From the IMG/VR virus record IMGVR_UViG_3300029319_000098, positions 1 through 45,952 of that record: a DNA stretch of 45,952 nt; one strand, given 5' to 3'. Both the position numbers and the translations under genes were made by a program. Origin of the DNA: a virus. Below, piece by piece: positions 1,357 through 8,678 of the stretch (position 1 is the stretch's first letter; every line of letters begins with the position of its first letter). A model generated the notes under the pieces. It was not told the DNA's origin. It saw only the letters and a program-made list of their open reading frames with translations, and did not search any database.

Positions 1357-1454
1357 TGAGGTTTACAGATGAACAACAGATTTATATCATACTTGGTATT
1401 AATGCTCTTCTCATCGCTATCTTGGCTGCACTCACAATCAGTCAACTTAACTAG
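1356..1454 (+). CDS. 32-residue single-span membrane peptide overlapping the next gene
   Basis: This ORF starts in a TAATG overlap with the previous stop. It encodes MRFTDEQQIYIILG followed by an uninterrupted hydrophobic stretch (INALLIAILAALTI), a good single membrane helix. It overlaps the first 86 bases of the thioredoxin-like gene at 1369 in another frame. The coupling and clean hydrophobic pattern favour a real gene, but it has no strong ribosome site and may be chance overlap with a signal-peptide-coding region. Confidence 0.45.
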   Translation: MRFTDEQQIYIILGINALLIAILAALTISQLN

Positions 1455-1752
1455 TTTTCAAGAAATACAAGCACTGAATATGCAAGAGTGCTCAGTAGTG
1501 CAAGTAAATGCTTCTTGGAATTTTAAAAATAGAGTAAAGATAGAAAAACTTGCTGACCTTTGTTACGTAGCAGAAATAGATTTAAGTAATAAAACTATAG
1601 GTGCTGTAGTACAGAAAGAGTGGGGTATTAAAGTAGTACCTACTATTATAATTCTTAAAGAAGGTAAAGAAGTTATGAGATATGAACCTGGTATTAGTAT
1701 GAGGTTTGATGAAAAAGAAGTATTTGATAAGATTAAGAAAGAAATCAGATGA
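1369..1752 (+). CDS. Exported thioredoxin-fold protein
   Basis: The 127-residue protein starts with a signal-peptide-like stretch (SYLVLMLFSSLSWLHS, about 7-22). The rest follows thioredoxin order: a VVQVNASWN strand-loop (about 43-51) where the CxxC site normally lies, then DLSNKTIGAVVQKEWGIKVVPTIIIL with the conserved cis-Pro in KVVPT, then KEGKEVMRYEPG. The CxxC redox pair is absent, so it is probably not a dithiol oxidoreductase. Two Cys at about 42 and 65 remain. GAGG precedes the ATG. It overlaps the 1356 ORF upstream and the 1749 ORF downstream (ATGA). Confidence 0.65.
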   Translation: MNNRFISYLVLMLFSSLSWLHSQSVNLTSFQEIQALNMQECSVVQVNASWNFKNRVKIEKLADLCYVAEIDLSNKTIGAVVQKEWGIKVVPTIIILKEGKEVMRYEPGISMRFDEKEVFDKIKKEIR

Positions 1753-2267: not shown

Positions 2268-2378
2268 ATGCCAAAACATACCAAAAGAAAGATGAAGAAG
2301 AAGAAAAACGGTTTAACTAAAAAGCAAAAGACTTTACCAAAGTTTTTACAAAAAGCAATATTAAAAAAGAAAAAGTAA
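2268..2378 (+). CDS. 36-residue lysine-rich peptide
   Basis: The ORF reads MPKHTKRKMKKKKNGL, continues with Lys-rich repeats and ends KKKK. An AAGAGGAG ribosome site precedes the ATG and the stop overlaps the next start (TAATG). It is another member of the basic micro-protein cluster; no function can be assigned. Confidence 0.55.
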   Translation: MPKHTKRKMKKKKNGLTKKQKTLPKFLQKAILKKKK

Positions 2379-2680
2379 TGCCAGTAAAAAGAAAAAGTAA
2401 AAGAGACCCAAGGTTAAAAAGAGCAGGTGTATCAGGTTATAATAAACCTAAACGTACACCTAATCACCCTAAAAAATCTCATATAGTTGTAGCAAAAGAG
2501 GGCAGTAAAATAAAGACTATAAGATTTGGGCAACAAGGAGCTAAGACTGCTGGTAAACCAAAAGCAGGAGAGTCTCGAAGAACTAAAATGAAACGTAAAA
2601 GTTTCAAAGCAAGACATAGAAGAAACATAGCTAAGGGTAAGATGAGTGCAGCTTACTGGGCTAATAAAGTTAAATGGTAA
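2378..2680 (+). CDS. Basic virion-associated protein (GYNKPKRTPNHP family)
   Basis: The 100-residue, strongly basic protein has a core reading SGYNKPKRTPNHPKKSH (about 19-35), then IKTIRFGQQGAKTAGKPKAG and a C-terminal KSFKARHRRNIAKGKMSAAY. The same GYNKPKRTP segment begins the truncated gene at the right edge (45,894), so the phage has two copies. From memory, similar KMSAAYWAN-ended proteins occur in marine phages. The genomic position among virion genes suggests a DNA-binding or structural role; that is inference. Confidence 0.72.
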   Translation: MPVKRKSKRDPRLKRAGVSGYNKPKRTPNHPKKSHIVVAKEGSKIKTIRFGQQGAKTAGKPKAGESRRTKMKRKSFKARHRRNIAKGKMSAAYWANKVKW

Positions 2681-2690
2681 GGAGAATAAA

Positions 2691-2843
2691 ATGAATATAG
2701 TAGTAAGTAAATTGTTAACAAGTTTGTTAAGTGAAAAAATTCTTAAGGCTGTGTTATTAAAACTTGGTGAATATTTCATTAAGAAATCAGAAAATAAACT
2801 AGATGATGAAATCTGGGCTGAAGTTAAAAAAGCATTAAAGTAA
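2691..2843 (+). CDS. 50-residue amphipathic protein
   Basis: I chose the ATG at 2691 because GGAG lies six bases upstream; an upstream in-frame start at 2646 lies inside the previous gene. The product (MNIVVSKLLTSLLSEKILKA, ending AEVKKALK) has a moderately hydrophobic N-terminal helix and an acidic/basic C-terminal helix. It might be a small membrane-active lysis peptide, but no family is recognised. Confidence 0.6.
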   Translation: MNIVVSKLLTSLLSEKILKAVLLKLGEYFIKKSENKLDDEIWAEVKKALK

Positions 2844-2854
2844 AGGAGAAGAAA

Positions 2855-2890
2855 ATGAACTGCGAGTGTAATTGCTGTGGAGGTTGTTAA
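2855..2890 (+). CDS. 11-residue cysteine-rich micro-ORF
   Basis: The peptide is MNCECNCCGGC, with five Cys in eleven residues. A good ribosome site (AAAGGAGAAG) lies just upstream. The stop overlaps the ATG of the 2890 gene in TAATG, as most neighbouring genes overlap. It could be a tiny metal-binding or redox peptide, or a leader peptide controlling translation of the large tail gene. It lies below normal gene-calling length, so confidence rests on the ribosome site and composition. Confidence 0.5.
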   Translation: MNCECNCCGGC

Positions 2891-6650: not shown

Positions 6651-7450
6651 TGGCTATAAAACCTTTTAAAATGCCAGACGTAGATGCTGCTTTCAAACAA
6701 TTAAATCCAAATCAAGTTGCACCAGGTAATGCTGCTGGACTTGGTTCTGGTAATTTATTAGGGCAACCAAACCCAGTAACTGCAGAAACTTTTACTATGC
6801 CAAACCTTGTACCTGACCCAATAATAGGAGATGAACCTACAGGGGGCACAACATATGGAGACCCAGATGTAAACGGAGGTATGGGTGGTGAAGAAGATGA
6901 AACTGCAACAGAGCAACCTGGACAAACACCTTTAGAATTATTACAATCTTTCTTTCCTGATGCAGATGTAGCTGAATTAGAGAAGCTTACTCGATTCGTG
7001 TCTGTAATCCCACAAGACATCTATGATGCAGCTGACGCTGATAATGAAATGTATCAGCTTATGCGTCAGGAAAGAACAGCACAGCTTGAAAGTGCAAGAG
7101 ATATGTCAGAGTCTTTGTTAAGAGATTCTTTATTTAGAAACTTAGAGCAAGCAAGAGGTATGGAGGGTAAGAGAGGTTTTGCTTTAGGTAGAAATATATA
7201 TGGTGATGTAAGTGACCAGGCAGCAACAAGATTTATGGGTGTACAATCTGATTTTGGTAGAGGTTTATATAATATAAATGAAGAAATACTAGGTCGTGTA
7301 AGAAGTGCACGTCAATATCTATCAAGTTTAGAAGCAAGACAAAGAGGGGACTTAATAAAGTTAGCAGACTTAGCTGATTTATTTGACCCTAAAGATGACG
7401 ATAACCAATTCGAAGGTTCAGATGACCAAGATGATTACGAACCAAGATAA
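6650..7450 (+). CDS. Virion/ejection-region protein with acidic tail
   Basis: The 266-residue protein has a Pro/Gly/Asn-rich N-terminal half (PNLVPDPIIGDEPTGGT) and a helical C-terminal half rich in Glu, Arg and Leu (about 130-245), ending in an acidic tail DDDNQFEGSDDQDD. It is coupled by overlap to the preceding gene. By size and position it resembles a small ejection or internal core protein; no family was recognised. Confidence 0.6.
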   Translation: MAIKPFKMPDVDAAFKQLNPNQVAPGNAAGLGSGNLLGQPNPVTAETFTMPNLVPDPIIGDEPTGGTTYGDPDVNGGMGGEEDETATEQPGQTPLELLQSFFPDADVAELEKLTRFVSVIPQDIYDAADADNEMYQLMRQERTAQLESARDMSESLLRDSLFRNLEQARGMEGKRGFALGRNIYGDVSDQAATRFMGVQSDFGRGLYNINEEILGRVRSARQYLSSLEARQRGDLIKLADLADLFDPKDDDNQFEGSDDQDDYEPR

Positions 7451-7466
7451 TAAACAGGATTAAAAA

Positions 7467-8678
7467 ATGAGTAAATTGTTGGAAAATATGGCAGTAATAA
7501 GAAGCTTTGCAAATAATGCAGCAGTTCAAAAAGTAGCAAGAGCAGATACTTTAAATCAAGTATTTCAATCTATAGCAGAAATTCCAAACGAAGTTATAAG
7601 ACAAGCTGGTGCTATGCAAATGGAAAATGAAAAAATAGATATGCAAAAACAACAAATAAAATTTAACCAAGAATATCAGTCTAAACAGTTACAATTAACA
7701 GAAGACGGTTTGCTTTTTGAGGCTTTAAAAGACAATAAAAAAGATTCAGTTTTAAACACTACCTATGACCCTTCTATGGAAGGAGCAGTGCAATCAGATT
7801 ATATTGACCCTACTCAGTTTGATACTGATATTTATAAAAATTTAGCAACAAGAACTAATGCAGATTTTAAAAATCAAGCACTTTTTGTGACTGACTACAA
7901 TAAAAAGAAACAAGAGTTAGGTGCTCTTACTAAGTCAGAAAACGAAACTAATTTAGAGTTTTTAGATAGAAAGATGAAAATGTACAAAGAGACAGAAAAT
8001 TTTCTAGCAACTTATTCTAATAAAAATACTGACTTTTATAAAAATGAATTGAAGAGTCTAGAAGATGAAGGAGCAGATTTATTAGCACAAACAACATCTG
8101 AAGTATACATAGACTTTTTAGAAAAAAATGCGTCTGCTTTAAATTTAGAAATAAGCCAAGTAAATCAAATCTCACAAACTTTAAGATATGCTAAAAATAA
8201 TCCAGAACAAGCTAGAGATATTACAAATAAATTTTTAGAAAATATTCAGTTAGATAAGTCTTTAAGTTTAACAGAACTACAACAGTTTACTCAGCTATAC
8301 CAATACGTGATGTCTCCAGATTTTGATTTTAACTTTGACCCAAATGACCCTTTTGTTAATAGTTTAAAAAGCTCTATCATAAAAACTGGTGAAAAATTAT
8401 TAGGAGCTACACCTAAAGAAGAACTACCTACAGAGCTAGAAAACTTTGATAATTTATTTACAGGCAAAAATATTGTAGCAAATGCTCCAGAAGGTTTTCC
8501 AAAAGATAGTCAACTGAAGTTTAACGTAAATGGTAAAGCAGTAATAGTAGGTAGAGGAGTGGTTGACCCACAAGCTTTAATGCCAGTGTATGAATATTTT
8601 GCTTTAGACCCTTCTAATAATACTGTAGTGAAAGTGTCACAACAAGAAGCATATGATTTATATAAACAACGTGATTAA
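7467..8678 (+). CDS. Helical internal virion protein candidate
   Basis: The 403-residue protein is predicted largely alpha-helical. Its N-terminal Gln/Lys-rich segment (IDMQKQQIKFNQEYQSKQLQ) may form a coiled coil, with many Asn/Lys/Glu residues after it. It ends VVKVSQQEAYDLYKQRD. Nothing enzymatic is seen. Position between two ejection-type genes suggests a DNA-ejection or inner-core role. Confidence 0.55.
   Translation: MSKLLENMAVIRSFANNAAVQKVARADTLNQVFQSIAEIPNEVIRQAGAMQMENEKIDMQKQQIKFNQEYQSKQLQLTEDGLLFEALKDNKKDSVLNTTYDPSMEGAVQSDYIDPTQFDTDIYKNLATRTNADFKNQALFVTDYNKKKQELGALTKSENETNLEFLDRKMKMYKETENFLATYSNKNTDFYKNELKSLEDEGADLLAQTTSEVYIDFLEKNASALNLEISQVNQISQTLRYAKNNPEQARDITNKFLENIQLDKSLSLTELQQFTQLYQYVMSPDFDFNFDPNDPFVNSLKSSIIKTGEKLLGATPKEELPTELENFDNLFTGKNIVANAPEGFPKDSQLKFNVNGKAVIVGRGVVDPQALMPVYEYFALDPSNNTVVKVSQQEAYDLYKQRD

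Follow-up and report, generated by a model that had tools for sequence, protein, structure and literature searches.

We identified a family of nano-genes that recurs at one operon position, in the late tail/lysis block, across dozens of genomes from uncultivated phages. Each encodes a predicted peptide of 9–13 residues with 4–5 cysteines, of the form MNC[E/D/N]CxC(x1-3)C, and codon-level comparison shows that this is a real, evolutionarily maintained family of predicted protein-coding genes. The member described here lies on a 45,952-base virus contig (the whole stretch is referred to as the window) that encodes a P22-type portal and an SU10-type capsid protein, both with remote matches only among cultured phages. 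A first-pass annotation of the window had described an 11-residue, five-cysteine micro-ORF, MNCECNCCGGC, with a good ribosome site and a TAATG overlap with a 724-residue ORF, and all of these features were confirmed in the sequence (Table 1). The nano-gene reads ATG AAC TGC GAG TGT AAT TGC TGT GGA GGT TGT TAA, with the ATG at 2855–2857 and the stop codon at 2888–2890, and cysteine accounts for 5 of the 11 residues. The properly spaced ribosome-binding site expected of a genuine small-protein gene is present (AAAGGAG). Its Shine-Dalgarno (SD) sequence has a predicted anti-SD pairing energy of −8.7 kcal/mol, equal to the family median (−8.7), compared with −0.9 at random positions. Exactly one ORF of this type (SD-led, 6–20 aa, ≥4 Cys, ≥30% Cys) occurs in the real window versus none in 150 dinucleotide-preserving shuffles. 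Cysteine is scarce in this phage's large proteins: over 12 large ORF stretches it makes up 14 of 7,777 residues (0.18%).

Table 1 Nano-gene of the window and the features around it
Feature	Position	Strand	Remarks
Secreted thioredoxin-fold-like protein without CxxC	1369..1752	+	Regular upstream neighbour; weak Pfam Thioredoxin match, E 0.012
Basic 100-aa protein (phrog_7595)	2378..2680	+	Frequent neighbour of the nano-gene
50-aa protein (phrog_402)	2691..2843	+	Usual left neighbour; used to fetch the unbiased sample
Nano-gene Shine-Dalgarno AAAGGAG	2842..2848	+	Overlaps the stop of the upstream gene; 6 nt 5' of the ATG
Nano-gene MNCECNCCGGC*	2855..2890	+	Frame, Cys positions and SD conserved; only third-position variation outside codon 6
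Second SD, GGAGG, for the tail gene	2879..2883	+	Mostly within Gly codons GGA GGT plus the preceding base; 6 nt before the tail ATG
Tail-type protein (putative), 724 aa	2890..5064	+	ATG shares the last A of the nano-gene stop (TAATG; TAGTG in relatives)

To avoid the bias of peptide patterns, we fetched 80 loci solely through the upstream phrog_402 protein. In 65 of these, the next SD-led ORF, 8–13 nt downstream of the phrog_402 gene, is a member of the nano-gene family. The other 15 loci (L294-L302, L307-L312) carry one unrelated long gene in its place, a 255–258 aa ORF beginning MKLKKRGIVIPDQHYPLED... with its own SD, which is perhaps a phosphoesterase. Chance or a single-genome assembly artefact is the default expectation for an 11-codon ORF and has nothing else left in its favour. 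It is rejected by the 65 of 80 separately assembled contigs with a family member at the same site, together with the shuffles, and we regard its probability as negligible.

We followed codon positions across the 38 unique contexts of this sample on a tree built from 160 nt of upstream DNA. Codons 1–7 of the nano-gene underwent 4, 4 and 26 changes at positions 1, 2 and 3, respectively, and all eight changes outside third positions fall in codon 6. The last Cys codon shows 0, 0 and 6 changes. Nano-gene length changed five times on the tree, each time by whole codons, and the wider context set agrees with the codon-position result. Because the length changes all involve whole codons and the substitutions are mostly at third positions, selection acts on the peptide, and this is the codon-type evolution expected of a genuine small-protein gene. 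A pure ribosome-loading ORF, in which translating any short ORF suffices and the peptide sequence is incidental, could account for the strong SD and for the abutting stop and start. It does not account for amino-acid-level conservation with free third bases in the Cys codons, so the codon-position test disfavours this explanation, which we consider improbable.

The first-pass annotation had staked its proposal on conservation in related phages, and the frame, the SD and the cysteines are indeed kept in all relatives that hold the junction, with one clade lacking one cysteine through an in-frame codon deletion. The peptide MNCECNCCGGC recurs in relatives with 76–98% tail-protein identity, and the clade that lost the Cys codon (79% tail identity) has MNCECNCGGC. 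In a relative at 62% tail identity, MNCNCVCGLCLN sits one gene further upstream, 5' of a holin; a frame of this kind is close by in every tail-gene relative that still holds the junction. When 2.9 million viral contigs were scanned with patterns, the matches listed included MNCECGCGC (the commonest peptide), MNCECGCGCVR, MNCDCGCGGCVNA, MNCECGCGLCLS-like peptides and MYCDCGCGICLS. Among the matches listed, the family analysed comprises at least 73 distinct sequence contexts and at least 22 peptides; the contexts are related to each other and the counts are not independent events. Cysteines 3, 5 and 7, and hence the CxCxC alternation, are present in 73 of 73 contexts among the matches listed. 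The last cysteine lies 2–4 residues further, residues 2, 4, 6 and 8 vary, and at most two cysteines adjoin. We note that N2, C3, C5 and C7 are partly fixed by the search patterns in this wider set, which is not the case in the upstream-neighbour sample.

No cultured phage with a nano-gene was found. Two downstream proteins of the relatives had no cultured-phage match, short-DNA searches for cultured relatives gave chance-level matches only, and no nano-gene accompanies the holin homologues of six cultured or named phages. A scan of the genomes of 84,980 species yielded two matches, one of them due to chance and the other a short ORF from Saccharibacteria whose context is unrelated. The latter, on the minus strand of the metagenome-assembled genome WRLL01000001.1 near 7439–7471 (locus L232), has 13 residues (MNCDCGCGCECGG) with AGGA upstream, and is perhaps convergent with the nano-gene family. 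The company of the contigs and the matches of neighbouring genes to seawater phages, rather than sample metadata, suggest that the group is marine. Of note, one 71.6-kb viral contig (locus L167) carries the block of thioredoxin-like, phrog_402, nano-gene and tail-type genes twice, ~10 kb apart.

The left neighbours of the nano-gene are small late genes, namely those for phrog_402, phrog_7595, the thioredoxin-fold-like secreted protein and a small membrane protein. The active-site region of the thioredoxin-fold-like protein reads SWNFKN. We considered and rejected a special link between it and the nano-gene: this neighbour is usually present, yet it also occurs without the nano-gene, in 13 loci (145 versus 13, with biased sampling). 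Loci fetched via phrog_7595 (L011-L090) mostly have no nano-gene because the phrog_7595 gene is widespread in other contexts. In Shigella phage Sf13 (locus L314, 1950–2518), a phrog_402 relative lies directly 5' of the holin, a position that hints at a place for phrog_402 in the lysis region. Further upstream in the window, 16–948 encodes a product whose C-terminal half looks like a HINT (intein/hedgehog-like) domain (PT-HINT in Pfam, a weak match, E 0.078).

On the downstream side, the next start lies −16 to +9 nt from the nano-gene stop in all 73 contexts among the matches listed. Overlapping or abutting stops and starts are the mark of a translationally coupled pair, and because the next start overlaps or nearly abuts the stop, a ribosome finishing the peptide is in position to initiate on the next gene. 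The first-pass annotation had coupled the micro-ORF to the tail gene. A conserved, SD-led gene placed for coupling to its neighbour stands, whereas the restriction to tail genes does not. A tail-type protein is the most frequent right neighbour; in one branch the neighbour is a 3TM GTA-type holin (PF11351) followed by the tail gene, and in other phages of the group it is an MSDKKTTML protein or an 87-aa protein. The "tail" label of the 724-aa protein comes from the first-pass annotation and is itself putative, an assignment by position and weak homology. No match to this protein came from Pfam, PHROG or 50,697 records of cultured phages; one relative tail-type family matches a PHROG internal virion protein, and the tail-type families are locally similar to each other. 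Anti-SD pairing at the tail start of the window is strong (−10.0 kcal/mol), as it is in the rest of the window's clade and a few others. In most family members the SD of the next gene is weak (median −4.4), whereas that of the nano-gene is strong throughout. Residues after the last cysteine (VR, LN/LS/LD, VNA) coincide with overlap onto the next start, as in GTGTCAGATAA, ATGCCTAAACTAA and ATGCCTAG. Because such C-terminal extensions are by-products of this overlap, the functional core would end at the last cysteine. Stop-codon readthrough or a frameshift fusion to the next gene was rejected, as the frame relation differs between clades.

RNAalifold detected no consensus RNA structure across the family, single-sequence folding gave z-scores of −0.1 to −1.4, and searches for Rfam elements and tRNAs returned nothing. 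In the largest clades the start codon of the next gene is 0.14–0.30 unpaired, versus 0.47–0.48 for ordinary starts used as controls. Codon choice appears to favour a start-codon hairpin in the offset 0 and offset +3 clades (mean percentiles 0.22 and 0.28), compared with 0.71 in the window's clade, where the tail start is not unusually buried for its peptide. The third-base choice at Gly8 in the MPRR/MPKQM clades (GGG) seems linked to base pairing of the RNA around the start of the next gene. A start-codon hairpin may modulate coupling in the GGG-TGY clades and not in that of the window. As a universal explanation such a hairpin was rejected, since there is no consensus fold and no support from codon choice in the window's clade. 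The same local hairpins are what favours an RNA or DNA signal, such as a hairpin, a packaging site or a protein-binding site, whose reading frame is open by accident. The three-base periodicity of changes, the whole-codon length changes, the varying 3' part and the missing consensus fold all count against such a signal, and we regard it as highly improbable.

Two facts must be explained together, namely residue-level selection with a fixed CxCxC, and strict proximity to next genes that change. We propose, with moderate confidence and from sequence comparison, that the product is a thiol- or metal-binding peptide encoded by the gene that opens a translationally coupled tail/lysis block, which would explain the residue-level selection and allow the proximity. 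The peptide would be made alongside the late proteins, and its evenly spaced thiols would do the work, with coordination of a soft metal ion (Zn, Cu(I) or Fe) as the likeliest mode. As a minimal CxCxC thiolate ligand, it could act either unattached within the cell or bound to a partner protein from the tail/lysis block. This reading draws on the unbiased recovery, the codon test, the fixed Cys spacing, the clade with in-frame loss of a Cys codon and the near-avoidance of cysteine elsewhere. Peptides of the same type stand ahead of at least four kinds of downstream gene, which argues for an autonomous product. Against it, a stand-alone peptide does not need the stop–start proximity kept in all 73 contexts among the matches listed, third-base choice at one codon (Gly8) appears tied to RNA pairing, and free 9-residue peptides are usually degraded fast. 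More tentatively, the nine-residue, four-cysteine product may rank with the smallest proteins conserved in any virus, as an autonomous nano-protein with metal or redox activity heading a coupled tail/lysis block whose downstream genes differ by lineage.

The main rival is a peptide-dependent regulator acting in cis on the next gene. Here the nano-gene would load ribosomes for the tail or holin gene through termination-reinitiation, with the coupling tuned by the Cys-rich nascent peptide or by the Cys codons in response to, for instance, cysteinyl-tRNA, metal or redox state. Such a leader would explain the proximity and, if the peptide matters, the residue-level selection. It fits the narrow range of next-start positions across several unrelated downstream genes, the pairing of a strong nano-gene SD with a usually weak downstream one, the more frequent pairing of downstream starts in the largest clades and the near absence of cysteine elsewhere in the phage. 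Against the leader, codon counting would need neither fixed CxCxC spacing nor conserved N2 and E4, and neither a consensus fold nor an Rfam element was detected. In the window's clade a strong SD belongs to the tail start itself, which is not unusually buried. The C-terminal codons are the most variable part of the nano-gene, whereas it is usually there that arrest peptides are best conserved. The fixed CxCxC and residue-level selection fit a peptide-level role, fit the counting of Cys codons poorly and are compatible with a cis-acting nascent peptide. On balance we consider the cis-acting leader possible, if somewhat doubtful.

The family indicates that a widely conserved gene has been invisible in these genomes, since ORFs this short are discarded by gene finders, and that comparison alone can support a 9-codon ORF as coding. 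The peptide is very small and synthesizable, so its metal or redox chemistry and its effect in cis are directly testable. If it is a regulator, it would constitute a peptide-dependent coupling device for tail and holin genes.

We compared the family with known systems. By motif alone, it is like metallothioneins and short CxC metal-thiolate peptides in its dense CxC motifs (CxCxC(x1-3)C); described metallothionein domains are far longer than 9–13 residues. In 2022, Fremin, Bhatt and Kyrpides reportedly predicted small-gene families in global phage genomes, finding unannotated micro-genes by conservation, and the nano-genes could in principle be among them. Neither the string MNCECGCGC nor a similar phage family was found in the literature searched, the 2022 catalogue, as the most relevant one, apart. 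According to a review (PMC12548453), translational coupling works best when the spacing is short, and ribosomes can be delivered by short uORFs, which also favours the cis-acting leader. The nano-genes are like the coupled uORFs of that review in the overlap or abutment of stop and start and, in most clades, in the strong upstream and weak downstream SD. Unlike those uORFs, which are proposed to act solely by being translated, their peptide is under residue-level selection. The polycysteine uORFs of mycobacteria are said to be leaderless, to have consecutive Cys codons and to stand before sulfur-related genes. They are cysteine-responsive attenuators, as summarised in a citing article (Canestrari 2020, cited in PMC9094748), a precedent for the cis-acting leader, and as summarised there they share with the nano-gene a tiny Cys-dense ORF directly before an operon gene, conserved across species. 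In contrast to these leaders, the nano-gene has a strong SD at an internal operon position, its cysteines alternate (CxCxC) rather than forming a consecutive run, and it precedes tail-type proteins, the PF11351 holin or phage proteins of unknown function instead of sulfur- or cysteine-metabolism genes. The mycobacterial uORFs are thus the nearest functional analogue, whose defining features the nano-genes do not share, and, set against the literature searched, we file the latter as a new family of phage nano-genes of the coupled micro-ORF type.
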